A stretch of DNA of 64,000 bases from Laetiporus sulphureus 93-53 (taxonomy: Eukaryota > Basidiomycota > Agaricomycetes > Polyporales > Laetiporaceae). Within the stretch, counting starts at the first letter, position 1. Each line of letters starts with the position of its first letter. Below are positions 2,574 to 57,274 of this stretch, one piece after another. The notes beneath the pieces are model-generated. The model did not search any database. It was not told the origin of the DNA and worked only from the letters and a program-made list of their open reading frames with translations. The stretch is taken from NCBI RefSeq assembly GCF_001632365.1, contig NW_024468576.1:1-64000 (forward strand). The letters are read 5' to 3'. The position numbers were made by a program, and so were the translations under genes.

Positions 2574-5500
2574 GTATGCCCGGAAACCCATAGCAGCGAA
2601 ATGTTCAAAAGTGGGTATTGCTCCATGAGAGGAGCGAGAAGTGCCCGAAAGCGAAGGGAAAAGGGCTGGCCACTGTGTGGGCGCAGCGACAGGACATTGG
2701 ACAGGGCAGCGTGGTTGTCCGTGCAGAGGTAAATGTGGGTAATCATGGGGTAGGTCGCCAGAAAACCGGCAAAGCGGCTGGCGACCGCCGCCATTGCGAA
2801 GAGTTCTGCGTCATACACCTCGGCCTGGTGACCCATGCCCCAAGCCCGCTCGTACTTTATAGCACCCTGGTGAATGATACACGCACCTGCACCTGCTCGT
2901 CAGTTCCGCGGGGTGGGGTCGGGCTGGGTGATCTGGGAGCTGTCGGTGAAGACCCATAGGGCATCGGGGAGAGGAATGGAAGAGTGCAAAAGAGGGAAAA
3001 AGAATGAATGTAGGTACTCCTTGGAGGTGTCTTTGGTAGGCGGAGGGATGCAGACGTGAACCCTCTCGTCCCACGGATGCGCAGGATCCCAGGGCGGCTG
3101 CAACCAGGGAAGAAGGCGCACCGCCCGCTGGGGCAGGGTTTGTTCGAGCACATCCACCGCACTGGTGCCGTGGCAGATAGGGATGGTGGGGTTGAGGAGT
3201 GAGAAATTGGGCGGGTGGGCAGCGCGGTTGGCCGCCAGGCAGTGGGTCACTGGGTGGGACGCCGAGAGGGTGAGAAGGCGAGCTGCGGCAAGGCCGTTGA
3301 GTTTGTCGAGCTGGTGTTTCATCGGCAGGACGCTGGATATTAGGTTGAGGACGTGGTGGGGGGTAGACCGCCATGCTCCCGTAAACCACCGCAGTGCATC
3401 ATTTTGTACCTGTTGCAAAGGTTGAAAAAGTGAGCGTGGGCCCCGCGGGTTATACCACACGGGGCTACCAAAGGTGAGAACGGGAAGGATGGTGGTAAGG
3501 TATAGCAAACGGGCTTGCGCGATTATCATGCCTCGCTGTGTGTTGGTGAGCATGCGGAAAGCGGCAACGTGGGATGAAGCCCGGGCTGCCATGACCCGAA
3601 TGTGGTGGGTGAAGGTTAGGCGTCGGTCATACCAGATGCCGAGCCAGTGCAAATATGAAGCAGGTTGAATGGTGATATCCCGCCCATCCCACTGAACCCG
3701 CAGGGGGGGTTGACGTCAAGGGAGCGTCTCGGGGAGGTAAAGTGCATAAGCTCAGTTTTTGCCATGCCAATGGTCAGCCCAAGCTGGTGAAGCGTGGTGC
3801 CCACACTAGGTAGAGTGCGTTGGATGATGGCAGTGTTCTCGTTCAGCGAGGGAGAAACAATAAGGAGGGCAAAATCGTCTACGTAGCCCACCGTAGACTG
3901 CTGGGGGTGCACGAACGGATCAAGGTTCGCATACAGCGGGGAAGAGTATATAGTAGAAAGGACTGGCGACAGAGGCGATCCCTGTGGGATGCCGAGTGCA
4001 GCGACGTGGTAAGATGGTCCCAGCTCGGAATTGAGCTTGGGCCGCATGGTGCACGAGGAAAGGAATGACATGGTCCAAAGGACCTCGTTTGTGGGAAAGC
4101 CCAAAGAAAGGAGAGCAGAGTGAAGGACGTCGTGGTGAATGTTATTGTAATAGCCTTCGACGTCCATACACAGTAAGGTAGCGGAGAAACCGTTTTCCCA
4201 TGCGGTGCGTACATGGTGCATCAGAGTGACTCCCGCATCCACGACGGAGTGTTGGCCCCACCCACCAAACTGCGAGCTGGGCACAAGATTGTGAGCACCA
4301 ATTTGAAAGTTGAAACGGGCAGCAACCACTTTTTCTAGGACCTTGCTCAGGGTTTCTAAGAGCGCTATTGGTCGGTGGAACTTGGGTGCGGTGTAATCCG
4401 CCTTGCCCGGTTTGGGCAGGTACACAACTGCCACAGCCCGAAGTGGGGCGGGGAGGTAACCCAGGTGCAAAGAAGAGGATAGAAAAAGAAAAAGAGCATG
4501 ATGCGCACCAGACCGCCAGACCCATTTTAGGAGCCGCCATGACACTCTGGAGATGCCAGGTGCTGAATAGTTAGATGCAGCCTCGATGGCAGCAGTTACT
4601 TCAGTGATAAGGAGGGGGTGGTCTGGGTGCGCTGCTGGAGGCGTAGAGGTAAAGAGAGGAGGCAGATCAGGCAAGGGCGGAGACGCCGGAAAATAGAAAC
4701 GTGTGAGTAGACGACCCGCGTCAGCAGGGAAAGAGCCAGTCTCCCCGTCCGTTCGGGTGACAGGTAGTGGGGGTGCCCTCACTCCTTTGGTCCAGGAGGC
4801 GAGCTGCCAGGGGTTGGTGTGCTGGAGTCGCGCGACTGCCTCCTGAGTCCAGTCCTTCCGAGCTTGTCGGATGATGGCCGAGAGTGTGACTTTGGCTTCT
4901 CGCCTCTCCTCACGAGTATGAGCCGCCTGGACATCTGCGCGGGCAGTGTCGCATGCATCGTTCCACCAGAGCTGGGAGGCCCGGTGAGCATGTGTGCGTC
5001 AGGGGAAGACTTCGTTGCAGGCCACGGACATTGCTCGCAGCAGAGCCTGAGCACCCGCTTCAAGGTCGTCATTGGTGGTATAGGTAGCCGGTGGTGGGGA
5101 CAGCGCCAGCTCGCGGGCAAGGCACGTGTTCCAGTCGTCCCGTTTGGACACATCGACTCGAAAGCCAAGGTCAACGTCTACGGGATGAGCAATGTGAGAG
5201 AGAGTAGAGGTTAGTAGAGCGTGATCAGATTCAAAGGATGTGGGGGTAGCAGCGACTCCGTGAACGTGAAAGTGCGCACTGGAGGTCGCGCAGACCAGAT
5301 CGATGATGGTGCCCGAGAGCAGGTCACCATTCACCATGTGGGTGGGTTGATCGAGGTCATTAAGAATTTCGAGCAACTCGCGCTCTAGCCACCCAGCGAA
5401 AGCGGTGGAGGCAGTGGAAGCAGAGCGGGAGGCCCGTCTGGTCCATGACCATAGGGGGTGGTGGAGATTAAAATCTCCGGTGACAAGGAGGTTCGCTCGT

Positions 5501-5965: not shown

Positions 5966-7646
5966 GGGAATGCGGTAATCTTTCCACGCAGGGCAGGTGG
6001 TGTCGGCGGCACTGTGACTGTTGATGCCACAGACCACACAGAAATAGTGGTCAGACTCGCAAGGCTGGTCAGCCGGGTGAGCCTCATGATTGCAGACAAG
6101 GCATGCCTGCCGATGCACATCGGACGTGTGGTCAGTCTTTCCACAGAAGCGGCACACAGGCGCCCGCTTCTTGCAGTGACTTTCGAGATGCGTGAGGCGC
6201 CAGCAACGAGTGCACTGACGGAAAACGGGATGATCTTTCGACTTCTTTACAGTGATGCGGGAGCCAAAGAACCAAAGGAAAGCGGCAGCATCACCGCAGT
6301 TGTCACGTCCAAGGAGGTTACGCGCACAGTAGTCGTGATGGGCATCCTCAATGGAGACGATAATCGAGGACTTCCTGAGCTGCTCGCGATGTTCCTTAGG
6401 CACAACGAAACCGGGTAGACCGTTGAAGTGAACAGACGAAAACATAGCATTACGGCATAGTTCCGCCATGATTTCCTCCTCAGTGAGTAACAATCCCATG
6501 TCGGGATGACGCAGCGGGCAGCTCGGGATGAACAGTTTCGTAACAGGAACGAGAGGGCAGAAGTCCTGTGGTGCGGATGCACGCTCATGCGGGTCTGGCG
6601 CAGGGGAGGCAGCATGCGGGATGACTCCCAACATGTGCCGTATGGGCCGGAGACACTCGCATATGAGCGAGTCAGGGGATTCGTGCGAGAAAACTGCTTG
6701 GACCTTGGTTGGTCCAGCGAAGCGGAGACCGAGAAAACGTACCTTGGCCCATGCGGGGGTCTCGCGCAGGCGTGTATGGACCTTAGCATACCATTGGGGC
6801 ATGGTACCCCCTGCCTCGATGGCGGCATGCTGCTCGGGGGTAATGAGAAGGACGTAGCACTTCTCGCGGTTCTTGGCGGCCACCTGTGCCATGGTTGGGG
6901 CATTCGGGGCCTGCGTCTCAGGCTGCGTTGTAGGCTGTGCTGCAGGGGCAGCAGCACTGGAGTTGGCGGCGGGGCACGTTGACGACCAGTACGGACTGGC
7001 GGTTGGGGTCGCAGTCCCTCGGGGCCTGAGGAGGGTGTGGCAGCGGACGCCCGCGTACTAGCTGGGCCTCGATAGCCGACAGCCGCGTGTTGATGGCTGA
7101 CGTGGCCATGCGAACGCCGTCCTCGACAGCCTTAGTCAGGGCAGCCTGCATGTCGATGCCGACAGGGAGGGCGCCTTCCGTGCGCAGGCGGGTGCGCGGA
7201 GCCTCGTCCATGAGTGCATCGTCGTCGAGAAGGACGGCTGCACTGGCGAGCTGCCAATGGAAGCGAGCCTGGTAGAGTTACATGATCCGGGCACCAGCCT
7301 CGGTGTCGATGATGAGGGGGTCACGCATGAGAGCGTTGTGGAAGTCGCGAAGGCAGGTAGAGAGCGCGACAGCGCAGTTCTCGAACTCGTCGGAGTATGC
7401 CTCGGTCTCGTAGGGGCCTTCGATAATGCACTGCACGCCGACAGCAAGGTCGCTCAGATTGTTGCGCAGAGACCTAATGGTGTCGCGCATATTATTGTGG
7501 ACCGGCGGGCGCGGGGGCGTCAGCGCTGAGGCCGACGTCGTCACGCTCGCTGGCGGTGGAGACCCTCCCGGAGGAGTTCGCTCTACACCTATGCCCTCCA
7601 TGGTCAATTCGCTGGCAGTCGCCTGTTGAGCGCTTATAGCGGACAT
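5939..7646 (-). pseudogene. LINE ORF1 (zinc-knuckle nucleic-acid-binding protein), broken
   Basis: ORF1 proteins of Tad LINEs bind element RNA. The first ATG is at 7646. After 122 codons there is an in-frame TAA at 7280-7278; the frame continues open to about 6918 with a small predicted helical segment. A +1 shift near 6900 then leads into a 317-codon frame (ATG 6892). That last part ends in cysteine clusters: C-T-R-C with later H and C, C-R-F-C-G-K with H and C, C-L-V-C with H and C, and C-V-V-C. These are CCHC-like knuckles. At least one stop and one frameshift make it non-functional as read. Confidence 0.75.
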
Positions 7647-7664
7647 GGTGGTACGGGAAAAAGA

Positions 7665-10519
7665 AGGATGAAGTTAGTATTGGCTACGCCGAAGCTCAAA
7701 GTGGTGGGCACAGTGGTGTCACTCAGAGGATGGGAGGTCGATCATGGACTCGCGAGTAAAGTCCGCAAGTGGCCAGAATGCGAGAACGTCTCAGAGGTTC
7801 GCGGATTCCTTGGGACCGCGGGGGTTGCAAGACGATGGATTAAAGGTTTCTCTCTCATTGCGAAGCCGCTAACTATTTTACTACGAGATACAGGCGAAGA
7901 TTTCATCTTCGGAGAGGACCAGAAGGCATCCATGGACGAGTTGAAGCGGCTTATCTCGGACGCACCTGTGCTCAAGAAACTCGACTATCAGCTGGCCGTG
8001 CTCATACAACCCAGAACTCGTGAGTCTACCGATGGACTGGTCATCTTGGCGGTCGATTCCTTTATCCATGGCGCTGGCTGGGTACTCTTCCAATACGAAG
8101 AGACCGTGAAACGTCCGGTGCTATTCGGTTCCTGTACGTTCAACGCGACCGAATCACGCTATTCGCAGCCGAAGGTCGAACTCTATGGTGTATTCTGGGC
8201 AATGAAGGAGTTGCGTCACCGCATCTGGGGAATATTCTTTCGTCTCGAGGTCGACGCGAAGTACTTGCATCAAATGATTAGCAACCCAAACTTACCGAAT
8301 GCGCCGATGACGCGTTGGGTTGCCTATCTCAAGCTCTTCAGCTTCGAACTCGAACATGTACCTGTGGGCAAGCATATCGCTGTGGACGGGCTGTCTCGTC
8401 GAAGACCATCATCAGATGACTCCGAAGAATCGGACGGCGAGGAGCAGCTTGATAGGATCATCGGCAGTGCGCGAGGTGACCACACAGTGCACCCACATTC
8501 CATTAATGGGCAGACGCACCTACTAGCTTTGGAGACTTCCCATCAGCGAAGGGCGAACTCCTGCATGTGGCTGCTGGTCCTGGGTATCACGGGATTGATG
8601 CAAACCTGTTCGGATCTCGACCACGCTGGTGGTCGGTGCATGAAGCGCATATCGAAACGGGCGCATCACCCAGAACTATTCCATCACCATTCCATGCCTC
8701 GTTCCTGCAGAACATGGATGACATCTCGTATATTGGGAACGAGTTCATGGTGCGAAAATGTGCGCAAACGACTACTAACATCTTTTCTCTTGAAGGAGTA
8801 TCTTCGCCTCTGCCCATCACCCACTATCGCGCCGCGTTCATCACAAATGATCTCATGGAACCTGCGGAGCAACAGGATGCGATCCACTATGCCGTCACAG
8901 CTGTCCCGAAGGCTTACAGTGCCTCGAGGACCTCGCATGTTGTCGCGCGAATGCAAGACTCCAGGTATTTTTATTACTGTCAGTCCTCTATTGTGGACAT
9001 GCAGAATCTTCCCCATCAACATCGCGTCTATGATGACGATGGTGAGGTATATTTCTGCGAGATCCAACAGTATCTCAAATTCGACGAGATGCCGCCACGA
9101 GTGCACGATGACCCTAGCGCCTCGAGAACGTTCATTCGTCGGGCAGCGGGCTTCGTTATACATGATGGGCGGTTGTGGAAAATCCACCGCAAAGCTCTTC
9201 CTCGTCTTGTGATTGCTGACAATTCTCGACGCTTGGATCTTCTCAAGCAAGCACATGACGATTGCGGCCATCGTGGACGCGATCCAACCTATCGAAAACT
9301 CGCGGACCGATATTACTGGCTGAACATGTACCTGCAGATCGCGTATTTCATTCGCTCTTGCAATGGCTGCCAATATCGCGCGCGCACACAAAACAAGACG
9401 CCGCTAACGCTTACTATATCACCCAGCATCCTTCGGTGATCCGTGCTGGACACTGTCCACATGCCGAAGGGCTATGGAGGACAGCGGTATCTTCTTCATG
9501 CTTCAGATGATGTCTCCCGCTGGCCAGAAGCACGCGCCGTTGCTAAGAACACAGCGCAGAACTGGGCCAAGTTTCTGTGGGAGGATGTATTATGTCGTTT
9601 CGGGTGCATTCCGGTTTGCATTTGTGACGGTGGTCCGGAATTCAAAGGCGCCACTCGTCTCCTACTCGAGAAGCATGGTGTCGCGGTCGTTATGAGCTCA
9701 CCGTATCATCCTCAGGGGAACGGTATTGCAGAACGCGATGGCCAAACACTTACCTGCGCGATCTTGCGATGCTGTGGACAGTCCTCAACGAAGTGGCTGC
9801 TCTTCGTTCATGCTGGGCTGCAATCCATGCGGACCACCGTATCGCGCGCAACTGGTTATACGCCCTACTTTCTGCTATACGGAAGACATTTCTTATTTCT
9901 GTTTGACCTCACTGATCGCACTTGGTATGCTCTAGATTGGGATCAAGTCAATTCTACCGAAGATCTCATCATGCTTCAGCTTCAACAACTCGCTTGAAAA
10001 GAAGAGCATATCGGCATCGCTATCGAGCATCTACGCCAGAGCCAACAATGCGCAATCGATGACTACATGCGCGTACACGAGCGGACGATCACTGCAGGCG
10101 ATTACTCACCGGGCACTTGGGTACTCGTCCACGAGACCTGGTTGGACGCGCAACACGGAAACAAAGGCGCGCTTCGCTGGTCGGGCCCATATGTCGTCCA
10201 CGAACGATACGCCTCAGGTTCCTATTGTCTGAAGGAGCTCGACGGCACCGTGCTCAAAGAGGCAGTCGCAGCTAATCGTGTCAAGCTTTTTTATTACAGG
10301 AAAATGCACCAGACCTTCCACTCTTGCATCTATCCTCAGTCAACCGATACTCGATCCATTCCGGACGACGTACTACTGACGACTTCACCGACCATCGACC
10401 TCAACGCAGCAACTTCAAAACCCCTCCATCTTCGTCTTCGTGGTCGTCACCTCTCTCTTGATACCAATGTCGCCGAACTCGCATCACTCATCGCGCAATA
10501 TTATGAGCCGCTGTGGTAG
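7665..10519 (+). pseudogene. Gypsy pol remnant (RT end, RNase H, integrase)
   Basis: The first part carries the RT-RNase H connection (W-P-E-C followed by V-R-G-F-L-G-T-A-G) and RNase H with the D-S-F-I-H-G-A-G-W motif. A frame change falls between about 8480 and 8600. Next come the integrase H2C2 zinc module (H-D-D-C-G-H-R-G-R-D, then C-N-G-C) and the DDE core, with D in L-D-T-V-H-M-P, D in C-D-G-G-P-E-F and E in G-I-A-E-R-D. The C-terminal R-W-S-G-P-Y module closes the protein. In-frame TGA codons lie at 9437-9439 and near 9995-9997, each at a place where arginine would keep the frame. The copy is not translatable as one protein. Confidence 0.85.
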
Positions 10520-40649: not shown

Positions 40650-42548
40650 ATGTGTCCCGACAGGAGCAGGAACCAGAATACACCATGCAAGTATCCAGGA
40701 TGCGAGAACACCGTCTGGAAGGACCCGGACGGTTCGTATTCGTCGTACTGTGGACTGACTCATCGCGATGCGATGGCGCAGATCACGAACAAGGACATCC
40801 CCAACTGCAAGGTCTGTGCTCGCTGTTGTCTCCCATTTGGCGATCGTGTGAGCCAATGCCCTGCTAGAGCTGCAATGTTCGGCCAGTCTACGTAGAGAAC
40901 GGGCGTAGTAGGTCTAGCAGGCATGACTGCCACGTAGTCGATGTTGAATATGTGTTATCGCGTTTGCAGAGCACGACTTCTGCGGTCTTCGGTGTGCCAG
41001 GTCTTATGGCAATGGCGGACGACGCCGTTCGAATTCCTTGACCAGAGTGCCTGCCGTCTTACCGACCAACAATGGCCGATGCCAGATCCCTGGGTGTGTC
41101 AAGCCGGCCTTCAAAAATCCAGATCAGACATTCAGCCAGTATTGTTCTAACGGACATCGGTCGTGAGTATGATGATGCTGCCCTATACACGTCGTTATTT
41201 ACGACGTGCTCTGACAGGATGGCGGTCACCAAATGTTTCGCCGAAGCTTGTCTGCTGTATGTATTCGTCGTGCAGCAGCCTGCCCTTAAGACAGCTCACA
41301 ACATCACTTCACAGCTGTGATAAATACCCTAAATCGGTACTGAATGGAAAATTGTCCGATTTCTGCTCGAGGAAGTGTGGACAAGATGCAGTGGCTGATG
41401 GTGACTAAGATAATAGCGATGTCAAGGATGGCATTTTTCTCAACATATTGTTTACAGCTCCGCGGATTTTGCATGTTCCAAGTGCTCACAAGATTTACAA
41501 TGAGGGTATGTCTTCGATGCGAGGTCAGCTGACATTGAGATTGACAGTGTGATCAGTCGAGAAGCAATTCCTTGATGGGTGGAAGCATCCGACTTCGACG
41601 AAGCCAACCATCATGAAGGTAAGGCACTCCGCCATCGTGAAAACTATCATCTGATGTGGTCGCGTAGATTTACCGCATCTACAGCGATAAGGATCACAAT
41701 GAACATTTCTGTCGGTATAGGTATGTTCTCTGCAATGCCCTGACAAAATAGTTCTCCGAATTAATGTAGGATCCCGTCAGATTGTCGGTAGAGCGCAAAC
41801 GTGGATTAGACGACGGCAACAGCAAGCGGCGCTGGCATGGAACGGTTCGTACCTGCCAATTGGGAGACAACGAGAACTTGAACCTGCGTATGTGCAACGA
41901 CGACGAGTGTTCGCTGTGCTGCATCATTCGAGTCAGTACATGGCACAGGTTGTCATTTGACCACCTAATACTGACTGCAATTGACGGCACAGTCGTCGTT
42001 CCGGCTCGCGAAGTTCGGCGCCAAAACCAACTTCGGTCGCTTTGGAGAAGGCATCTACACTTCCGCCACGTCCTCCAAGGTAAGCTATGATTCTTGCGAC
42101 ATCCTATTGATGCTGATATCCTATTGTTTGTTCTTACGTTAGGCGAACGATTATAATGACGAGCTAGGAGGTTCGCCTTACAGGACTATGCTCCTCAATG
42201 ACGTAGTTATTGGTAAGACAATCAAGTTGATGCAGGATAACGAAGATCTCAAGGCGGTGCGTTCCAATGCTGCCTGCTGAATGAGCTTATCCAATGTCTG
42301 ACGTCCAGCCGCCTGGCGACCACGACTCTGTGACTGGCGAGCCTGGAGGATCCTTGAACTATGATGAGTGTATTGGTAAGCATCTTTTGTCCGACAACAG
42401 TGCGTGAGCTGATCTGGACTTATGGTTGGCAGTGTACAAGGTGCGGTTCTCACACGCTTCGAATGCACGAATTCGAATCCATGTTTACATCACTGAACAG
42501 AACGAAGCCATACGTCCCCTTTTCCTTCTCATTTATCGAATGAATTAG
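40650..42548 (+). CDS. PARP-like ADP-ribosyltransferase with Cys-rich N-terminus (copy 1)
   Basis: About 14 short exons run from ATG 40650 to TAG 42548. Four Cys/His modules come first: C-K-Y-P-G-C...Y-C-G-L-T-H-R; C-K-S-C-N-V-R-P-V-Y-V-E-N-G...H-D-F-C-G-L-R-C-A; C-Q-I-P-G-C...Y-C-S-N-G-H-R; and C-D-K-Y-P...D-F-C-S-R-K-C-G. They probably bind zinc. Then comes a PARP-type catalytic domain: K-Q-F-L-D-G-W-K-H-P, R-R-W-H-G-T, a Cys cluster (C-x5-C-S-L-C-C), N-F-G-R-F-G-E-G-I-Y-T-S-A-T-S-S-K and Y-D-E-C-I-V-Y-K. The His of W-H-G-T, Tyr of G-I-Y-T and Glu before C-I-V-Y form the H-Y-E triad of active PARPs. Every junction I checked keeps frame, so it looks functional. Targets and chain-forming ability are unknown. 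Confidence 0.85.
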
Positions 42549-43063
42549 GGCGGAAATGCTAAAGCGCCCTTCTTTACGGAATCGAGGAAGTACAGGGTTT
42601 GATGGTGAATTGTGATCTTGTTTCTTGTACGCTTCAATGTTTGGTGCTGAGTTTTAGGGATGTATTGGATATGGATATTGCTATTGCTACGGAGGACGAC
42701 ACGGGCTTGATGCAGATCCGCTACAATCGCTAGGAAGAGCTCAATAGTATGTATGGTCCATGTATGTGGTACATAAAATGTAGTAGAGAAAAGTGCAATC
42801 GTGCGCGCAGCAACACCTAGGTCGTAGAACACCAAGTCTTGCGGGCAGGAGCAAACTCGCTGGAAACTCCCGCCAACGAGTCCGCAGCATTGGTACACCA
42901 TTGGGCCTCCGAGGACTGGTATCAAAGGCACAAGTACCAAGAGCCAGATGCAGACTGCGCTGCGACGCTTATGTGCAAACAAGCCCCAAAGCATACGCTA
43001 AACATGACTATCAGCGTAAGGATGAGAATGTGCTCCGATAGAATGCATACCTCCGGAGGGACG

Positions 43064-44021
43064 TCACAAGCGCGACTTGTTCCATCTGTCTCTGACCCGC
43101 ATGAGCGCCTTGCCGAGCTCGTTCCTGCCATTTCCGTCCCGACCAACTCCCCAGAATGAGTCGACCTGTAAAAATATATGATGAACATCACGGCCTCACG
43201 ACATAGTCAATCGATACGAGTCGATGGTCGCCAGAATCGCGATTACTCACCGGACTATCCTCGATCAATTGGCTCTCACCCGTGTCAAGGAGCATGCGGC
43301 GAAGGTGTGAGTGTTGAGTAAACTTGGCCTCGAGGATCATGTCCATGATGCCCACGTTGACGTCGAACCAGTCGGAGCGCTGCAGCCTGCGCGACCGCGC
43401 GGCTTCCTCCAGGGCGGCGCGTGCGGAAGGGAGCCGACGTATCCGCTCCGCGAGTGCTGGATCTGTGTCTAGGAACTTGTGCGCCTGGAACACTGGGATT
43501 GGGAGCCACTCTCAGCATCCGTGAGGAAGATGGAGGCTCGCATTGAAACGTACGATGTTCTGCTGTTGGATAAACCTTCCCAGCAAACTCGACAGGATGA
43601 GGAGAGAAATTCGTGAATCTGTGTATACACGTTGGTTGCGAGTGAGCATAGCCAGAACACGGTGCCACTCACTCATAATACGGTTGATCACGGTGGTAGA
43701 ACAGAATGGGTTTCACAGGCCGATGACTGCGCATACGCGGACTGGACAAATCGTGCATCTCATAGTCGGTCTGAGGAACATCCCGAGCATGTAAATTGCC
43801 ATATCTTTGGGGTCCCGCTGAGAGTAGGTGGTCAGCGCAAAAGTCAGATCCTAGTGTGTGTGCACTGTTATACCATTGGGCTCTTCGTCCACGTCCATAG
43901 GAACCGAGTCTTGACCATGATATGAGTAGGTCATGGGCCTCCTCCACGACCGGACGGGAATGATGCACCAAGCGAACACACAGGTCATGATTGCAAGAAG
44001 AGCAAAGACAACGGCAAACAT
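43064..44021 (-). CDS. NADAR-domain protein (COG3236/YbiA-like) with N-terminal membrane segment
   Basis: Five exons (44021-43874, 43817-43673, 43618-43554, 43492-43251, 43165-43064) give 233 residues. Residues 3-22 are hydrophobic (F-A-V-V-F-A-L-L-A-I-M-T-C-V-F), then R-S-W-R-R, which looks like a signal anchor. The NADAR fold follows and is complete: F-T-N-F-S-P-H-P-V-E-F, Y-P-T-A-E-H-L-F-Q-A-H-K-F-L, S-D-W-F-D-V-N-V-G-I-M-D, A-K-F-T-Q-H and F-W-G-V-G-R-D-G-N-G-R-N-E-L-G. NADAR/COG3236 proteins are N-glycosidases: some act on riboflavin-pathway intermediates, others remove ADP-ribose from guanine. It lies between two PARP-like genes, which makes ADP-ribosyl removal the more interesting reading, still an inference. 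Confidence 0.85.
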
Positions 44022-44195
44022 GCGAGCGGTGATTATGATTATATGATGAGCTCTCACACTAGATGATCAAAGTCAAATATATGTCGAAAACCGGACGTTT
44101 ATTGAATGAAGAATTAAAAGTGGGCCGTGAAAGTTGAGCTCGAAGAGTAGCACGGTTGGGCCGAGGGCTGATCAGGGCCATGCGGGAGGCAATAT

Positions 44196-45586
44196 AAAGT
44201 TACTTATTTGGCTCACTTTGTTCACTTATCGTAGCTTGCTGCCACCAAACTCGTAGAGGGCTCACTTGGGTCCACTTGAGGTTTTTCCCACGCTTCACTC
44301 GTTCCTTTGTAGCTTGTTGTACCTCGCTGCTCCTCGCACCGCTCTTCCTTGCTACATGTTGCCCTCCCTCGCTTCGTTCTCGATTCCTCGTCGTCCATTA
44401 TGGCAGCAGACCCATCGCGAGTATGACACACACAGCCTCGAGGCAGCATTTATGTGCATTTTCAGCTGTCCTCCACTCTGTCACATCAGGGCTTTCCATT
44501 ACATCAAGCCATCATTGTAGTGACATATCACCTTGACTCATATGGTGGTTGAGATTGTCTAGCTGCACGGTAAGCTGCGCGATTCATACCCAGACTTCAA
44601 GATGTCCTCCTTGCCTATCGCCTTAACACCCGCGCCACCGAAACGCAAGTCAGTGTTCCTGAGCATCTTCTCGCGATTGGCATCACCATCCTATCACCCT
44701 CCATCCGATCAATGTCAGCTCGCGCCATCTCTCATTGAGGTCCACATGCCACCGGCAACACTACTATATAGTACATGTGGCGATTCCATTCGCTTTCGCT
44801 CATTTAGCTTCCCTCACGTTCTCTCACTTATCGTCACTTATGCTCGCGTATCCTGCACGTATCGTCACTTACACTCACTTGACAGCGCGTACGTTCACTT
44901 ATGGCTGCATAGAGTTGGAATTATCCTCTATATTGAGCACTTATTCTCCTGTAGCTCACCATGCAGACACAAATGCACCGGCTTGTTCAAGGCTTCTTCT
45001 GCTGGCGCTTCCAGCCCTGCCGCCCTTTCGACCTCGCTCCAGTCACCAGTCTAGCTCGCGATGTGAGTTATCACTGCGATGGGTCACGAACACTCACATT
45101 ACAGTCAGGCCACCGCGAGACGAATCGTCGCCAAAGGCTACGTAACTGTACATCAGCGTCAGCGCATCACGAGCCATGTGAACATGCCGAGGCGGCGAGC
45201 AGAAAACTGGGCGGTTTGACGGTGATGGCGGGCTAGGTAGGTGCATAACACAGCCTTGGAGTATTTACATAGTAGCTGTCTGACTTCAATGTGGCCGATG
45301 CATAATGAATCAGCCAGTTAACAGAAGGGTCGGAGAGGAACAAATCTAGAGGATTTACCGCGACTGCTGATGCCTATTTTGCCCGGCAGGGGCCTTGCTG
45401 GGGCCACTGAGACTTGCAGGGGTTCACTTTGGGTTCACTTTTGGTCACTTGTACTCACTTGCTCAGTGGGCAACATGCAGGAAGTGTCAAGTGAGCATAA
45501 GTGAAGACAAGCGAGAATAAGCGCCCGACGTCGACAATTTCACTTGTGCTGCCAAAATAAGGTTCAAGTGAACCAAAAGTAACTTT
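44196..45586. mobile_element. Putative non-autonomous element with TCACTT-rich ends
   Basis: The left end reads AAAGTTACTT followed by TTGG and TCACTT. The right end is the inverse (AAGTAACTTT preceded by AAGTGAACC). Inside both ends, TCACTT/AAGTGA copies are numerous (roughly a dozen), for example around 44,800-44,900 and 45,420-45,480. No transposase or other gene is visible in the 1.4 kb. No target duplication was found, so the ends could be off. A hAT-like or other short inverted-repeat element is one possibility. It separates the NADAR gene from the second PARP-like gene and stops 195 bp before that gene's ATG. Confidence 0.45.
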
Positions 45587-45781
45587 TGTAAGGGATAAGT
45601 GACTAAGTGAAGTGAAATTGTGAACCGTCGCCATGCGGCAGTTTGATCGCGAGCCATACTAGCTCAAGGGAACGCGCTTCTCCCACGACCCAGCAGCTCA
45701 CTTCCCCCAGCAGCGAGTCCGACATATCTTTCTCCTGATATCGGTAGCGGTCTGAATAGCTTTTGGTGTGCTCTGACGGCG

Positions 45782-47661
45782 ATGAACAGTCAGAACATAT
45801 TATGCAGCTATCCAGGCTGCACAAGGACCGCATGGCAGGATTCCAGCGGCTCAATCTCGTTGTACTGTAGTAACACCCATCGGGACGCCATGGCTCGCAA
45901 TCGCTCTGGGATTCGTTACTGCAAGGTTGTATAGTCCATAAATACATATGTTATGGGAGCCTCACTGACGAGACAAGTGGCGATCGTAACAGAATTGCAA
46001 TTCCCGACCCGTTTATGTTGAGAATGGCCGTGGTACGTCTCTACCGCTAGGATACCTTCTGAGCGTTTGAGTGCCCCGGTGGGGGACTGAACATCCGCAC
46101 AGCTCACGACTTTTGTGGCAAGCGCTGTGCGACGAGCTTTCATATGGTCTCTGACGAGCTTCACGATCAATTCGAGCGTCTTGCACTGTCCCCGGCCGCC
46201 AACAAATCACAGGTTCCCTGTAAGTTCCCGAAGTGCCGCAGCCCTGCGTTTGTAGGTGCGGACGGGACATCGAGTGGTTACTGCTCGAACAAACATCGGC
46301 TGTACGTCTCTGTGTCGCGATGGCCATTTTTGATAGTGACGACTTAGATGTAATATCACAGCGAGGCCGTCAAGACCGGCAGAGCGGAAGCCTGTCTGTT
46401 GTAAGCACTCTCGTCCTTGATATCAAGCACATCTCAAGCCGACTATATGCTGCTAGTTGCTACAAGTGGCCGAAGGCCACCATCGAGGGTACATTGTCCG
46501 ATTTTTGCTCGAAGAAATGTGGACAAGACGCAATCCTCAACGGTAAAGGCATATAGCGTTGTTCCGACTCGTTGGAAAGTAACGTGAAAAACCTCCAGCT
46601 CCAGTCATCTTGAGTGTTCCAATGAGCCAGATCTCTTTCAAAGACGGTATGAAGTTGGTTGTGGAAGCGGTTCTGACTTGTTGACGTTGCGTGCAGTTAA
46701 GAAACAGTTTTTGGATGGATGGAAACATCCTACGGCAAAACCTACCGTTGTAAAAGCAAGCGTACACACTTCTTATGGCAGCGTAACCCACTGACGCGTA
46801 GCAACAGGTCTATAAGATCTACAGTGACCAGAACCACAACAACAACTTCATGCGCTACCGGTAAATATTCACCACCCTCTTATGCACATGGATGACTGAA
46901 GCGGACCGGGCGGATTAGGCAATCTGTGGAAAGACGCACAGGTCTGCCAGGTGGGAATAGCAAGCGTCGCTGGCACGGTACTGTCCGAGAGTGCCGGCTG
47001 GGAGACAGCGACAACGACTTGATGCTCTGCTCGATCGGAGGCTGTTCACTTTGCAGCATAATCCGCGTAGATATCTTTCTATTTTCATTTCAAGCAGGTT
47101 GATAAAGTCTACTTTGTCCGCAGTCATCGTTCTCCCTTGCGCAGGCTTACAAAAGGACGAACTTTGGCCGATTTGGTCATGGAATCTACACCTCGGCGAC
47201 GTCATCCAAGGTTCGTTTTCACTGAATGACAAGATCGATTGGTGGCTCATCATTGCATGTATCGATAGTCGAACGATTACGTAGCTGAGCATGGAGGATC
47301 GCCGTACAGGGCCGTTCTTCTGAGCGATGTCGTGTTGGGGAAGACTATCAAGCTCACGACCGGCAATACGAGCCTGAGAGAGGTGAGCAACTGAGCCGGC
47401 TTCGTTGGCCATGATTGATTTGACTCGGTTCAGCCACCGCGCGGATATGATTCGGTCGTGGGCGAACCCGGGGGCGATTTAAACTACGATGAGAGCATTG
47501 GTGAGTTCTGGCTTGTTGAGCTCACTGTTCTGTGATGCTGACAGTGTGTGTCTGCAGTGTATAAGGTGATGCACCGCATACATGCTGTACCGATGCATAC
47601 TGATGACTTTGGCTAGAACGAGGCGATACGCCCTTTGTTCTTGGTTATCTACCGTTCGTGA
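45782..47661 (+). CDS. PARP-like ADP-ribosyltransferase with Cys-rich N-terminus (copy 2)
   Basis: This is a paralogue of the gene at 40650 with the same exon pattern, ATG 45782 to TGA 47661. The Cys modules repeat: C-S-Y-P-G-C...Y-C-S-N-T-H-R; C-K-N-C-N-S-R-P-V-Y-V-E-N-G...H-D-F-C-G-K-R-C-A; C-K-F-P-K-C...Y-C-S-N-K-H-R; C-Y-K-W-P...F-C-S-K-K-C-G. The catalytic part has Q-F-L-D-G-W-K-H-P, R-R-W-H-G-T, N-F-G-R-F-G-H-G-I-Y-T-S-A-T-S-S-K and D-E-S-I-V-Y-K, again with a full H-Y-E triad. Both copies appear intact. Differences cluster in linkers and in the residue after the catalytic Glu (Ser here, Cys in copy 1). The promoter region directly abuts the TCACTT-ended insert. Confidence 0.85.
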
Positions 47662-51554: not shown

Positions 51555-52807
51555 ATGTCTGACAGCAACGGCGCGCCCAAGCGCAAGGTCACGTCCTTCC
51601 ACAACTTTATCGAAAAGGGAGGCAAGTTTGAACCCGAGAAAGGTACGCGATCGCTCGCGAGACAGAAATTCTGACGGGAGGTTGATGGTTGGTGCGCTCC
51701 GTTGCTGCAGGGCGATACCACCTCTATGTCGCGTATTCGTGCCGTGAGTGGAAGAGCATTGCGGAAGTTGTGGTCGTACTTAATGGCGCGTTTACCAGCA
51801 TGGGCTACGCGCACCCTCATCATGCGCCAGCTGAAGGGCCTCGAGGACATCGTCGACATCAGCGTCGTGTCCCCGCGCATGGGCCACGAGGGATGGCCCT
51901 TCGCCAAAGCGGACCCCTTCCCCGGCGCGACATCCGATCCCATCCACGACTCCGCACACATCAAGGAACTCTACTTTCGCGCAGAGCCCGAATATGGGGG
52001 GCGGTTCACCGTCCCTATGCTCTGGGACAAGAAGACGGACACGGTCGTGAACAACGAGAGCAGCGAGATCATCAGGATCTTCAACAGCGCGTTCAACGAA
52101 CTGTTGCCGGCGGAGAAGGCGCAGCTGGATTTCTACCCGGGAAAGTTGAGGGGGGAGATCGATGAGGTGAATTCGTGGGTGCTCACCACCGTGAACAGTG
52201 CGTCGCGCGTAGTCGTCTTTAACCTTTGAGGACACAGCTGATGTGCTGTTGCTATGTAGGCGGTGTGTACAAAGCTGGCTTCGCTCGTACGCAGGCCGCG
52301 TATGAAGCTGCCGTCATTCCACTCTTCGAGTCGCTCGACAGGCTCGAGAAAATACTCACAGGCAAAGACTACCTCATCGGCGACCGCCTCACCGAGGCCG
52401 ACGTCCGCCTCTTCCCTACTATCGTGCGCCCCTCCCTCCTTCATTTCCGCCCATATACTCACTCGCCGCCCTTGTCCGTGCTCGTTTCTTCGCGTGCCCG
52501 CAGGTCCGTTTCGATCCCGTCTATGCCAACCAGTTCAAGTGCAACCTGCGTTTGATCCGTGACGGCTACCCGGCCCTCCACCGCTGGCTCCGCCGTCTCT
52601 ACTGGACCAATCCTGCATTCAAGGACACATGCAACTTTGAGCACATCAAGACGAACTATTACTGGTCGACTCACTTCGTGCGTCTGCAGTTGTAATGCAC
52701 CGCGAAGTTAATTGCTAACGTATGCCGTGAAGGAGCACCTTAACCCCACTCAGATCATCCCTATTGGCCCGGTGCCGAACATTCTCCCCCTTGAAGTGGC
52801 TGCATAA
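51555..52807 (+). CDS. Xi-class glutathione transferase (glutathionyl-hydroquinone reductase), copy 1
   Basis: Xi-class GSTs strip glutathione from S-glutathionyl-hydroquinones, a reaction linked in white-rot fungi to breakdown of aromatic compounds. ATG 51555 gives a short cytosolic-type N-terminus. The first intron is followed by G-R-Y-H-L-Y-V-A-Y-S-C-P-W-A, with the catalytic Cys before P-W-A. Then come [19 protein letters not shown] and the helical domain with [18 protein letters not shown] family-typical end follows, with R-L-Y-W-T-N-P-A-F and V-P-N-I-L-P-L-E. About six exons end at TAA 52807. It is tandem with a second copy 580 bp downstream. Confidence 0.9.
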
Positions 52808-53389
52808 GCCCTATGAAGGAGTCTTGGGCCCAGGAGAGCGCGAATAATCCGTGAATATTCAGTGCGACTCGGGCGGAAAGCGTGTGTACACGAGATGTAG
52901 GAATATATTTTCTCGAATGCAGGACATTTAAGCGCATTAGAGGAAAATGCTCCTGCATGCATGAAGACGCAATAACGCAGGTAGCCTCATCAATAAGCCT
53001 CTGTAGAGAAAGACAACCATTTCTCTGTGCTCACAGTGCAGGAATTTAGGGCCAATGCCTGACGAGCTTTTGTGTTTGTGGATACAGAGCACCTTGATGA
53101 TCCGCGAACATGTCCTGCGTGATTCGCTCATTATACATTCTAATGTTGGCTTGTTCCTATGTGTACTGCAGGTTCAGTGGATGCTGTATAATCTTTAAAG
53201 CGAATGAGGGATAGTCGACGTCGAAGTAGATCAATGAAACCTCCGCCGCGCGAGCGGCTGGTGAGCAAACTGCTCGGTGATGACGCCTGCTCTAATCATA
53301 CTCGTAATCGCCCTGACCGCTGCCTACTCCAAACAGTCATCTGCTTCACAGACGACCCACTATGACCGCTCATAAAGCGCACGGCGCGC
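52808..53389. other. Intergenic between the two glutathione transferases
   Basis: No gene recognised. It contains the promoter of copy 2. Confidence 0.4.
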
Positions 53390-54825
53390 ATGCTCCTTTC
53401 TCGCAACCTCATCCTTCGTCTGCCAGTGCGTGCACGTTCTCATCGCGCTGTGCTCTCCGTCGCACGCTCTGTCCACTCTCTGCGTTCGCATCACGACTCC
53501 AGCATTAGGTTCAGGCTAAGCATCCATTCGGAAACACGAGCAATGAGCACTAAGGACGTCTCCCACCAAAGCGATATTAACAAGATGACGACCGACAGTG
53601 ACGGCTCCTTCAAGCGTAAGGACTCATCCTTCCGTAGCTTCATTCAGAAGGGAGGCAAATTCGAGCCCGAGCAAGGTACGCTCCCACCGCAAGGCGGACG
53701 CCCGGACATGCGACAACTGATCGATTTCTGCGTTCTACCATCGCAGGCCGATACCATCTCTACGTCTCGTACGCATGCCGTGAGTATCCAGGCGTATATG
53801 CATGCGTGTCGCCCCTGACCGCTCATCCACCAGCATGGGCGACGCGCACTCTGATCATGCGCCAGCTGAAAGGCCTTGAGGATTTCATCGACGTCAGCGT
53901 CGTCTCACCGCATATGGGCTCCGACGGCTGGCCCTTCGCCACCGCAGATGCCTTCCCGGGCGCAACCCCCGACCCGATCCACAATTCCGCACACGTCAAG
54001 GACCTCTATCTCCGCGCGGATCCCGCATATGACGGCCGCTTCACCGTTCCTGTGCTCTGGGACAAGAAGACGGACACGATCGTAAACAACGAGAGCAGTG
54101 AGATCATCAGGATCTTTAACAGCGCGTTCAACGAGTTGCTGCCGGTGGAGAAGGCGAAGTTGGATTTCTATCCGGAGGAGCTGAAGGCCCAGATTGACGA
54201 GGTGAATGCGTGGGTATATGATACCGTTAACAGTACGTCCGTGTTTCGTAGTCTTCATGCCGTTGTGAGATCCTGAGCCACTGAATCCGTGTAGACGGCG
54301 TGTACAAGTCTGGGTTCGCGCGTACGCAGGCCGCGTATGAAGCTGCCGTCTTCCCTCTCTTCGAGTCGCTCGACCGGCTCGAGAAGATGCTCACCGGTAA
54401 AGACTATCTCATCGGCGATCGTCTCACCGAGGCCGACATTCGCCTCTTCCCCACCATCGTACGTCCTTCCCCTCCTATACTTCACGCGCATATATCCACC
54501 TATCGATACCTTGTATGTGTCCACAGGTCCGCTTCGACCCGGTCTACGTCGGTCACTTCAAATGCAACCTCCGCACGATCCGCGACGGCTATCCCGCGCT
54601 CCACCGCTGGCTCCGCAGGCTGTATTGGACGGTCCCCGCGTTCAAGGACACGTGCAACTTTGAGCACATCAAGACGCATTATTATTGGTCGCACCCCATG
54701 GTACGTGCGCCGCGTGTCCGGAGGGAAGGATACTGACGATGCGATGTGGATGGTAGATTAACCCGACGAGGATCGTTCCTGCCGGTCCGGTGCCAAACAT
54801 TCTCCCGCTTGAGGGGAAGGCGTAG
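53390..54825 (+). CDS. Xi-class glutathione transferase, copy 2, with probable mitochondrial presequence
   Basis: This is a tandem paralogue of the gene at 51555 with the same exon pattern and the same catalytic block (Y-A-C-P-W-A-T-R-T). It keeps [21 protein letters not shown] and V-P-N-I-L-P-L-E. It differs at the N-terminus: from ATG 53390 the frame adds about 51 residues rich in Arg, Ser and Leu with no acidic residue in the first ~35 ([14 protein letters not shown]). That is the composition of a mitochondrial targeting sequence. A second in-frame ATG at 53543 would give a cytosolic form, so dual targeting from two starts is possible. Substrate is inferred from the class. Confidence 0.88.
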
Positions 54826-56335
54826 ATATTCTGTTTTGCGGTTCGATGTCGCATCCTGCGAGCAGTCGGGGTTTGTAAAAATAACCGCCCGTTTCCCAGT
54901 GTTTATGTTTTAGTCACCATATCCCAAGATGCTTCCACCAGCTGTGATCATGCATCCAGTCACCACATGCATCACTATATAGATAACCCACAACCAACAT
55001 TTGCATCCACGGCCATAGGACTCTGAAAGCACCGCATCCCGTCCGATCTGCGCAGTTAACCAGAGTGCCGCCCAGTTAGTACCATGGTGGGGGACCACAC
55101 GGGAATCCTGGGTGCTGTGGTTTTTGCCCACGCACCAGACATGCATCACTTGTATCATATCGATGAAGCATCGGATTTCAAGTGCCGTCGATTAATCGTT
55201 GGACATTGACGTAATCTGATCATAGTTTCAAGCTTAAGCTCTTTGAAGTACGACCCATCCATATCTTCGTGTTGAAGTCTGTAGCAGCTGATGGCCTTTG
55301 CGTAGACGCTATCTTCGTTTCCAACTGTTGTGGCAATGCACACACCATGGTTTCTGTGCTTACGGAGCGCCCGTTAAAGCATGACTTCTGATAGCTGTCA
55401 AGCGTTCGGCTCACGCCTTGCATCTCGTCAATTTCATTATTTGAGTCGCTTGTTTCTCAACAGTATGCTGACCATCTTCGCTACACTGACACTGCCACTC
55501 CAAAAATGCCATCATCAATGTCCATAGTGGGCTTATTTGTTTCTCGTTCCTTGTCGCGTTCACGGATGATCGCAGCACTACCTCGTGAGTGTCGACCCCG
55601 TGCTCCCTCTACGTTCCGCGGGCCGCATTTTCAGATGTTTAAAAGTAATCCTGCTTTGTCTGTCCTAGCTCACCCCCATCCACTGTTGCGATTTGTGATT
55701 GGAGGGCCGCCTTCGGCGTCGGACCACCGGTTCGTTTATCCTTATACGGTATCACTAATTCCTACTTTAGCAAATGCTTTCCCCACTCAATGTTGAGCTC
55801 CCCAACGCTCATTGCCCTTCACACTCTGGACAGGAGGCATATATATATTCGTGTTGAGTACGCCGGATGCCCCAGAGGCTTTTACCCTGGTGCATCCGCG
55901 TACGTGGTTTTACCCTTAGCCCCGCTCTATACAGATGTACTTACTGGTAGCACAGTGACGCGAAAGTACGCGTCACTACAGCCCTCCGGTCATCCATTGC
56001 ACCACCGCGCCGAAGCGCATTATCCACTGTCATCAGCTGCTCATCGAGTCACATTTTCGCTCCGAGTCAACCGTCTGCAGCTATGTACGCGGGAGAGGAT
56101 GGTATGTCTAGCCTCATTCTGTCCAAGCGAAGTGTCTCTCATGATCAATACTGGAGACAACAAGCAGATTGTTTCTTCAAAGCGTGTTCCTCCCCCGAAT
56201 GAGGTCGAGAACAACGCCATCGCAATAATCGCTTCCAACAAAGCTCAACCGAGGCCGCTAGGGCCAGCGTGTTGTTACGTGAGTAAGCACATAATTTCAT
56301 GCACGATCAACATCACCCACTGATTGACGATACTA
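54826..56335. other. Intergenic, possible missing 5' exon of the aerolysin-like gene
   Basis: No confident gene. A 178-codon frame (55790-56323) ends just before the aerolysin-like exon, but its reading frame does not join to it across the obvious GT-AG intron (56276-56335). A true first exon may be hidden here. Confidence 0.4.
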
Positions 56336-57274
56336 GACGACAAGGAGCGTCGTGTCTTACTCCCTCGGTACCTGTATGCCAAAGACATCTATGGTCGATA
56401 CCTGCGCGTTCAAAAAGCTGCCACCCGCTGGGAACTCCTGACAATCGCGGCTACGGAACCGAATGCCGACTGCATCTTCGAATCGACACGTCGTGACGAT
56501 GGCAAATACAACTTCAAAGGGAACAACGGCCATTATTTCAACCATTACTCTTTTTTTAGCGAAGACCCTGACATTCTCACTTGCGACTCGACGGATTCGC
56601 ACGGTGTGCCCATGAGAGTGGTGCATGAGTCCGGCGATCAAGTACTACTGGAGCACAAACAGTGTTGGTCCTCTGCAGACAAGCACACCAGGGGCGGTGT
56701 GTGCCTCTACCCGTTCATCCAATCGAACTCGCGCTACAACATCGTCGCGGCGGCCGTACGCAAGACGTCGATCCTTGACATCGAGTATAACATCGCCAAC
56801 GCCACCGTCACCAACGTGCCCACGGTCATTCTCGACACTGTCTTGGAAAACGACACCGACGCGCCCGTGTCTAGGACTGTTCCGTTTTCTTACAACCGGA
56901 TGGTCGAGGGCACTTGGAATGACGACCGAGGCATCATGGTCGGGTTGGGCGTGACGTTTGTCATAGGTGTTCCGTACGTGGAGAACGAGAAGCTGGACAT
57001 AGCGGTCAGTCCTGCAACGCAGGCGCATGTTTGGGCGGGCACGGAAGGTGTCTCGGCAACGGTGGGCGATGAAATAACAGTCGTTGTTCCTCCCAGGAAG
57101 AAAGGGATCGTCGAGGTCGTGCTTCGCAATGCTCGCATCAAGGTTCCGTTCAAATACAAGTACAAGTCGGAATTCCTCGATGATCGGATTCAATTGGAGG
57201 AAAGGACCGGAATTTACAAGAACGTGGATATTTACGGGATTGAAGTGAAGATGAGCAATTGGGAAGACTTATAG
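56336..57274 (+). CDS. Lectin-like plus aerolysin-like pore-forming-family protein, 5' end unclear
   Basis: The open frame ends at TAG 57274 and encodes about 312 residues. The first ~150 look like a beta-trefoil (agglutinin-type) module with repeated aromatic/Gly turns. The remaining ~160 are beta-rich with alternating Thr/Val and a long amphipathic stretch, as in aerolysin/ETX-MTX2 folds. Such proteins are usually made soluble and assemble on sugar-bearing membranes; in fungi a defence role is often proposed. No signal peptide is seen. No ATG starts the frame: the codon at the expected place (56324) is TTG, and an acceptor site lies at 56335. Either an upstream exon exists or the start codon has been lost. 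Domain calls are by pattern, not by search. Confidence 0.65.
   Translation, partial: DDKERRVLLPRYLYAKDIYGRYLRVQKAATRWELLTIAATEPNADCIFESTRRDDGKYNFKGNNGHYFNHYSFFSEDPDILTCDSTDSHGVPMRVVHESGDQVLLEHKQCWSSADKHTRGGVCLYPFIQSNSRYNIVAAAVRKTSILDIEYNIANATVTNVPTVILDTVLENDTDAPVSRTVPFSYNRMVEGTWNDDRGIMVGLGVTFVIGVPYVENEKLDIAVSPATQAHVWAGTEGVSATVGDEITVVVPPRKKGIVEVVLRNARIKVPFKYKYKSEFLDDRIQLEERTGIYKNVDIYGIEVKMSNWEDL

Follow-up and report, generated by a model that had tools for sequence, protein, structure and literature searches.

Cys-rich PARP-type ADP-ribosyltransferase genes paired with a YbiA-type NADAR gene in Laetiporus sulphureus and other mushrooms: a probable writer/eraser unit

The window, that is the whole stretch of 64,000 nucleotides analysed here (bases 1–64000 of contig C67, 156,492 bp, in the 38.6-Mb genome of Laetiporus sulphureus 93-53; Basidiomycota, Polyporales), contains a NADAR gene on the minus strand that is enclosed by two plus-strand genes for PARP-type ADP-ribosyltransferases, in the order PARP1, NADAR, PARP2. 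The pairing of these genes is real and conserved, and they probably form a functional writer/eraser unit; we put at roughly 0.65 the probability that a conserved ADP-ribosylation unit of this kind exists in Agaricomycetes, with this locus as one of its copies. The basis for this reading is that the genes are intact with their catalytic residues kept, that PARP/ADP-ribosyltransferase (ART) and YbiA/NADAR folds are predicted for the products, and that linkage of the genes holds for many species and, within this genome, for two loci. A first-pass annotation of this DNA had suggested a unit acting on DNA, RNA or protein, and the idea of a unit is well supported by the linkage, the intact catalytic residues and the predicted folds. 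Its coordinates, strands and gene order all proved correct on re-modelling, as did its description of two paralogous plus-strand genes with Cys-rich N-termini and complete H-Y-E triads on either side of a minus-strand NADAR gene. To its knowledge no such fungal neighbourhood had been described, and we found none in searches of the open-access literature, the widest of them judged by the titles of the matches listed; that literature leaves out most subscription papers.

Linkage of PARP and NADAR genes across species

Relatives were compared in lists of named records, ordered by their similarity to the window's own, linked genes (120 of 125 PARP matches, 120 of 281 NADAR matches and 120 of 187 matches to a chimeric query), and all counts of relatives given in this paper are among the matches so listed. 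A PARP and a NADAR record were taken to share a contig where they lay on contigs of exactly equal size in one assembly. Among the 29 assemblies (28 species) with both genes listed, 23 had them on the same contig, against a chance expectation of 0.9 (40-Mb genome assumed) to 1.4 (25 Mb assumed), and where the PARP contigs totalled at most 250 kb the contig was shared in 11 of 13 assemblies (expected 0.11–0.18); because the species are kin, the lists are similarity-ranked and contigs can be large, these chance figures overstate the evidence and are not to be taken literally. Postia placenta was excluded from the count, its two genes being listed from different assemblies. The first-pass annotation had reasoned that the unit would fall if the genes were unlinked in nearly all relatives. 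Among the relatives compared this is not so, and their presence on one contig in most comparable mushroom genomes suggests that they probably work together.

The species sharing a contig span three orders, namely Polyporales, Russulales (Artomyces) and Boletales (Suillus). Taxonomy records gave the order for Laetiporus, Suillus and Artomyces, and for all other listed relatives the customary classification is followed. In Rhodofomes roseus, g5433 (PARP) and g5434 (NADAR) are consecutive on a 40-kb contig; Phlebia brevispora has g1676 (PARP) with g1677 and g1679 (both NADAR) on a contig of 22.6 kb; and a single 234-kb contig of Phanerochaete sordida carries five PARPs and ten NADARs.

The PARP-type genes and their products

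The PARP1 model is identical to the deposited protein across all 385 amino acids, and the last 342 residues of PARP2 equal deposited P0001, its first 36 residues being predicted by this analysis only. Each gene has 13 introns, which agree between the two in order and phase, one PARP2 intron being of the GC-AG type. Over 376 aligned codons the proteins are 61% identical, with identities of 0.71, 0.73 and 0.36 at first, second and third codon positions respectively, the low third-position value being the pattern left by purifying selection on the PARP proteins. A reading of the PARPs as pseudogenes was rejected, as the 14-exon frames are intact.

Both products match the Pfam PARP family (PF00644) above its gathering cut-off of 26.7 bits (PARP1, 52.6 bits, E 5.4e-14; PARP2, 54.1 bits, E 1.9e-14), in a search that used, for PARP1, an earlier model differing at one junction; the end of PARP1 exon 2 at 40904 has since been replaced by 40907, which reproduces P0004. 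The H-Y-E triad (Table 1) is kept in 109 of the 120 listed relatives; of the remaining 11, some are short or gapped and others carry substitutions. N-terminal to the catalytic domain, both proteins carry four Cys-rich, zinc-knuckle-like motifs, found on the spliced protein by a regular expression (CxxxxC...C...H or CxxC...C...C). Exactly four such motifs occur in 32, and three in 10, of the 47 listed relatives (out of 120) of at least 360 amino acids, while a letter-shuffle control, one per relative, gave at most two. These knuckles would be expected to bind zinc.

The structure predicted for PARP1 (mean predicted local distance difference test score, pLDDT, 87.4, with 57 listed sequences in the alignment; residues 84–96 below 50) has the catalytic domains of tankyrase and PARP4 as its best fold matches, and the same two domains are the best sequence matches of PARP2; the ART fold was predicted for PARP1 only. 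Tankyrase and PARP4 have the same H-Y-E triad and differ from the window PARPs, which carry the four Cys-rich knuckles and for which the Pfam search listed no ankyrin, SAM, BRCT or VIT domain.

Listed PARP relatives come from Polyporales, Russulales, Boletales, Agaricales, Thelephora, Tulasnella and Serendipita, with distant ones in Balamuthia and Ectocarpus. Pattern scans of viral contigs and of bacterial and archaeal genomes, using one or two peptide patterns, yielded no PARP relative. The PARPs were unmatched in anti-phage and bacterial profile libraries except for a weak ribosomal-protein match far under cut-off, and no PADLOC model matched PARP1 or PARP2. The chimeric-query search also listed a PARP–G-alpha protein (P0242) and a double PARP (P0241), both of which may be gene-model joins.

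Fungal PARP family proteins of clades 1 and 6 have been reported in Basidiomycota, with clade 1 only in Postia placenta (Citarelli et al. 2010, PMC2964712; this and the other papers cited are represented by the accessible parts of their text). Clade 1 is described as having WGR/PRD and clade 6 an E2-like part (PMC2964712). The same study reports Saccharomyces cerevisiae to be without PARPs. Neither window PARP gave a Pfam match to any of these at E <=10, in a search where HMMER filters drop most weak matches, and a P. placenta relative of the window family is listed (P0247) despite the clade-1-only report. Judged by clade description and domain content, the window PARPs do not fit the fungal clades as surveyed in the accessible text of that study and appear to lie outside them.

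The NADAR

Our NADAR model starts at 44021, whereas the deposited protein P0123 (164 amino acids) starts later, at 43758. A first model of 244 amino acids had an implausible first intron of 23 nt and gave way to the present model, in which this intron has 56 nt (233 amino acids); the 244-amino-acid version was used for the Pfam search, the listing of relatives, the structure-sequence alignment and the residue counts. It matches Pfam NADAR (PF08719) with 133.1 bits (E 1.4e-38; cut-off 35.1). The catalytic Glu, Lys and Glu (Table 1) were matched by alignment with the Phytophthora NADAR 8bau and Escherichia coli YbiA 2b3w. These residues line the ADP-ribose site of NADAR (PMC11543638), and all three are kept in 113 of the 120 listed relatives; the seven without the full set include proteins with two NADAR domains, possibly misplaced by the alignment. 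NADAR subfamilies are told apart by the residue on the last strand, which is Glu in YbiA, Asp in BC4488 and His in phage (PMC11125620). In the window NADAR this residue, aligned with 8bau, is Glu208 (numbering of the 244-amino-acid model), so the protein belongs to the YbiA subfamily and not to the DarT1-linked (Asp) one. Its predicted structure (pLDDT 94.8, with 45 listed sequences in the alignment) has its best matches in YbiA of E. coli (Foldseek, 2b3w, template modelling scores 0.83/0.81) and in the structure of the Phytophthora NADAR with ADP-ribose.

With the predicted exon 1 the protein would gain a hydrophobic segment in its N-terminal part; such a segment is also present in relatives P0147, P0131, P0136 and P0165. 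The threshold for such a segment was passed by 10 of the 98 listed sequences of sufficient upstream span (window model counted), in a region that aligns weakly, which gives only a hint of membrane anchoring. In the anti-phage and bacterial libraries the NADAR matched the NADAR family anti-phage protein NF053876 far under cut-off, and its PADLOC match was weak. Also listed were P0121, P0245 and P0159 (Phanerochaete sordida, Antrodiella citrinella and Fomitopsis schrenkii), among which are proteins with two or three NADAR domains and one RING-NADAR protein recorded on the same contig as PARPs.

Further copies in the genome and gene types

A second PARP–NADAR locus lies on contig C59 (118.4–128.9 kb), with PARP and NADAR genes within ~9 kb; its gene ends are approximate, having been read from six-frame translations (Table 1). 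When the 999 window frames of at least 40 amino acids were compared with 30 kb of C59 (E 1e-4), all matches fell inside PARP or NADAR genes, one of them antisense. A recent segmental duplication of the whole neighbourhood was rejected, as the two loci have no other gene found in common. Two Cys-rich genes at the C59 locus (124.5-125.5 and 127.9-128.9 kb) alternate with the NADARs and have similar knuckle motifs; they are possible adaptors or inhibitors.

All three NADARs found with both Glu residues and the Lys kept stand beside PARPs, in the window and on C59. A NADAR-like gene away from PARPs (C20:249153-249608) has, as read by eye, Leu and Val for the two Glu and Phe for a conserved Trp, and is possibly a pseudo-enzyme. 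A PARP-domain gene at C9:148121-148264 falls outside the Cys-rich family at the search sensitivity used, and our guess is that it encodes an ordinary PARP1-like protein. The PARP and NADAR copy counts for this genome are lower bounds, because only the best candidates were scored.

Quick trees with supports from the Shimodaira–Hasegawa-like approximate likelihood-ratio test were built from 93 and 88 rows, mostly named records, with P0208 and P0111 dropped as too short; the NADAR tree has few columns and many open forks. The window PARPs group with Polyporales and Russulales relatives (58 rows, support 96), apart from a group in which C59 PARP a and a PARP on contig C17 stand with Suillus, Agaricales, Thelephora and Trametopsis (17 rows, support 88). 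The window NADAR likewise falls with Polyporales and Russulales relatives, and the C59 NADARs group with Wolfiporia P0240, Suillus, other Boletales, Agaricales and a few others (20 rows, support 90). Type agrees within the window pair, within the C59 pair (with PARP a) and within the two Suillus pairs, which suggests two types of each gene in largely matched pairs.

Proposed function and alternative explanations

Going by what is known of the two families, the PARP-type transferase with its four knuckles would use NAD+ to attach ADP-ribose to an intracellular target recognised through the Cys-rich knuckles, which may guide the PARP to nucleic acid; the YbiA-type NADAR beside it would remove the ADP-ribose by N-glycosidic hydrolysis. 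The modification would then be reversible, or the cell protected from its own transferase. PARPs and NADAR would both be active and share one substrate, either a base (guanine, from the known NADAR cleavage) or another N-linked acceptor. NADARs, an oomycete one among them, reverse guanine ADP-ribosylation in DNA (PMC11543638), bacterial and phage NADARs do so in RNA (PMC11833690), and a YbiA-type NADAR neutralises the transferase YarT (PMC11125620). The lineage-specific expansion may reflect a role in conflict with viruses, mobile DNA or rival nuclei, and the growth of PARP and NADAR copies side by side in Phanerochaete sordida would point to conflict more than to housekeeping. By analogy, we tentatively suggest a PARP-type writer, guided by its zinc knuckles, that modifies RNA or DNA bases as a defence or poison (in nuclear conflict or against mobile elements), with the linked NADAR as its cognate eraser and the two duplicated together, type-matched, across mushroom orders.

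Several observations weigh against such a unit, or against a nucleic-acid base as its target. The contig was not shared in six of the 29 assemblies (Cyathus striatus, Fomitopsis betulina, Lactarius tabidus, Russula decolorans, R. dissimulans and R. vinacea). One clade (support 100) unites the listed PARPs of these three Russula species with one of R. compacta, so the three may reflect a single relocated copy, and the PARP and NADAR of F. betulina, both on contigs of less than 70 kb, may be pieces of one locus. A large shared contig is not the same as adjacency, and the search with the chimeric query listed no PARP–NADAR fusion (0 of 120 listed, out of 187). Contig C17 has a lone PARP with no NADAR found on it, C59 PARP c stands beside the window type and breaks the type match, and linked and unlinked NADARs are intermixed in the tree, the unlinked ones being about as dispersed as after shuffling (13 changes against a shuffled mean of 12.3), so that linkage does not single out any one NADAR clade. 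As to chemistry, tested NADARs are inactive on phosphate-end ADP-ribosylation (PMC11833690), two bacterial NADARs are inactive on uracil ADP-ribose, the product of human PARP10 (PMC13036486), and we met no report of guanine modification by any PARP in the accessible text of the literature consulted. The published substrates of NADARs and PARPs so far do not meet, and hence this PARP family would have another acceptor, or the pair would act on protein or small molecules. The common ancestry of the species also counts here, as do the capping of the lists and their ranking by similarity to linked genes; on these grounds the linkage could stem from the way the lists were selected or from synteny inherited among a few close species. 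We consider this very improbable, as the linkage extends over three orders, two gene types and two loci in one genome without another shared gene found.

The NADAR could also serve riboflavin biosynthesis as an ordinary N-glycosidase of metabolite repair, like YbiA, with the PARPs acting on an unrelated target and neighbours merely through inherited gene order. The window NADAR has the fold and subfamily of the riboflavin-intermediate N-glycosidase and scores above the cut-off of its model (TIGR02464, 124.3 bits against 73.7), YbiA is its closest solved structure, gene order can be inherited, and for several Boletales whose NADAR is listed (such as Boletus, Paxillus and Coniophora) no PARP is among the matches listed. 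It is nevertheless unlikely, for the window and C59 loci have only PARP and NADAR genes in common, and NADARs are both linked to PARPs and multiplied beside them (ten with five on the P. sordida contig), a tracking of copies that is unexpected for a housekeeping enzyme; furthermore, the NADAR away from PARPs on C20 is without the catalytic Glu residues. Within the writer/eraser reading, the pair might act on protein or on a small ADP-ribose signal and not on nucleic acid, a version we regard as quite possible, if short of probable. Its PARP catalytic domain is nearest to tankyrase and PARP4, which are known for protein targets, and the predicted hydrophobic anchor of the NADAR would be odd in a DNA-repair enzyme. 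Soluble ADP-ribose derivatives have been proposed as substrates of viral NADARs (PMC9503650), whereas the de-ADP-ribosylation demonstrated for NADARs in the text consulted is from guanine bases (PMC11543638, PMC11125620, PMC11833690). Rather less likely is another form of the same reading, a poison–antidote element, with the PARP as poison and the NADAR as antidote, linked by selfish drive or fungal allorecognition: linkage, copy-number expansion, largely type-matched pairs and the bacterial analogues would all be expected of it, but the solo PARP on C17 and the PARPs on contigs without NADAR among the matches listed would not.

If the locus is a writer/eraser unit, it adds to the transferase–NADAR theme what is, to our knowledge, the first eukaryotic case with a PARP-type writer. 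The role of eukaryotic NADARs has been stated to be unclear (PMC11125620), and the conserved PARP neighbour is, as far as we know, the first genetic handle on it. The question becomes a biochemical one, namely whether the window NADAR erases what the window PARP writes, and on which target. Were that target a nucleic-acid base, NADAR-reversible base ADP-ribosylation would reach beyond bacterial toxin–antitoxin pairs to a gene pair in a eukaryote.

Relation to known systems

The likeness to bacterial DarT1–NADAR and YarT–YbiA, as described in the accessible sources, is one of analogy. In the toxin–antitoxin system DarT1–NADAR (DarTG1) a transferase gene likewise adjoins a NADAR hydrolase gene, and ADP-ribose is added and removed; the same adjacency is seen in the window gene order and in the consecutive gene numbers of two relatives. 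The writer of DarTG1 is DarT, whereas that of the window is a PARP (PF00644) with Cys-rich knuckles for which no DarT family was listed in the Pfam search. The NADAR of DarTG1 is of the BC4488 type, with Asp replacing the Phytophthora Glu, whereas the window NADAR is of the YbiA type and has Glu there; moreover, the window genes are eukaryotic and spliced. YarT–YbiA of myxobacteria likewise has a YbiA-type (Glu) NADAR adjoining an H-Y-E transferase, and this NADAR rescues toxicity (PMC11125620). YarT would be set apart from the window PARPs by its description as a small Rhs/Tre23-like transferase of few myxobacteria, and the best matches to tankyrase and PARP4 speak against a YarT-type writer here, whereas the window family is PARP-type with four knuckles, spans three fungal orders and often has more than one copy.

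Feature coordinates and surroundings of the locus

Table 1. Coordinates of features in the window and, where C59 is named, at the second locus.
Feature	Position	Strand	Remarks
PARP1	40650..42548	+	Cys-rich PARP-type ADP-ribosyltransferase, 385 amino acids, 14 exons; spliced model equals deposited P0004
PARP1 exons 1-7	40650-40811, 40868-40907, 40970-41162, 41218-41256, 41315-41400, 41458-41505, 41557-41618	+	
PARP1 exons 8-14	41668-41720, 41781-41931, 41993-42079, 42143-42256, 42309-42375, 42433-42440, 42501-42548	+	
PARP1 Cys-rich zinc-knuckle-like motifs (four)	40686-40763, 40806-40995, 41080-41157, 41234-41378	+	Second and fourth span introns
PARP1 triad codons	41836..42368	+	His247 (41836), Tyr300 (42056), Glu365 (42366)
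NADAR, YbiA-type	43064..44021	-	233 amino acids; exons 44021-43874, 43817-43673, 43618-43554, 43492-43251, 43165-43064
NADAR catalytic residues	43258..43560	-	Glu 43560-43558, Lys 43478-43476, Glu 43262-43260; aligned with 8bau, 2b3w
Multi-copy insertion	44186..45629		1,444 bp, not part of the PARP–NADAR unit
PARP2	45782..47661	+	Cys-rich PARP-type ADP-ribosyltransferase, 378 amino acids, 14 exons
PARP2 exons 1-7	45782-45925, 45993-46032, 46103-46301, 46362-46400, 46457-46542, 46599-46646, 46697-46755	+	
PARP2 exons 8-14	46808-46860, 46919-47066, 47124-47210, 47269-47382, 47434-47500, 47558-47565, 47617-47661	+	
PARP2 Cys-rich zinc-knuckle-like motifs (four)	45803-45880, 45920-46128, 46219-46296, 46393-46520	+	Second and fourth span introns
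PARP2 triad codons	46974..47493	+	His242 (46974), Tyr294 (47187), Glu359 (47491)
C59 PARP a	118.4–120.0 kb	-	
C59 Cys-rich gene	120.6–121.6 kb	+	PARP part degenerate-looking
C59 PARP c	121.9–122.9 kb	-	
C59 NADAR	123.6–124.3 kb	+	
C59 Cys-rich gene	124.5–125.5 kb		No PARP part found
C59 second NADAR	126.4–127.7 kb		
C59 another Cys-rich gene	127.9–128.9 kb		No PARP part found

NADAR and PARP2 are divergently oriented with the insertion, which the first-pass annotation had not noted, between them, and without it the start codons of NADAR (long model) and PARP2 would lie head to head, ~307 bp apart. The insertion is flanked by a 9-bp direct repeat (44177-44185 and 45630-45638), has further copies on contigs C44 (96% identity) and C62 (94%), and contains a CTCACTTATC-like tandem repeat; three of its longer frames gave no Pfam match above cut-off. 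Elsewhere in the window, retroelement frames with reverse transcriptase, RNase H and integrase domains were found at 3619-4998 (-) and 7530-9994 (+), and two adjacent frames with a glutathione S-transferase N-terminal domain at 51675-54273 (+). A frame at 56324-57271 (+) has a weak match, under cut-off, to the ETX/MTX2 pore-forming family, and is perhaps the aerolysin-like lectin known from Laetiporus.

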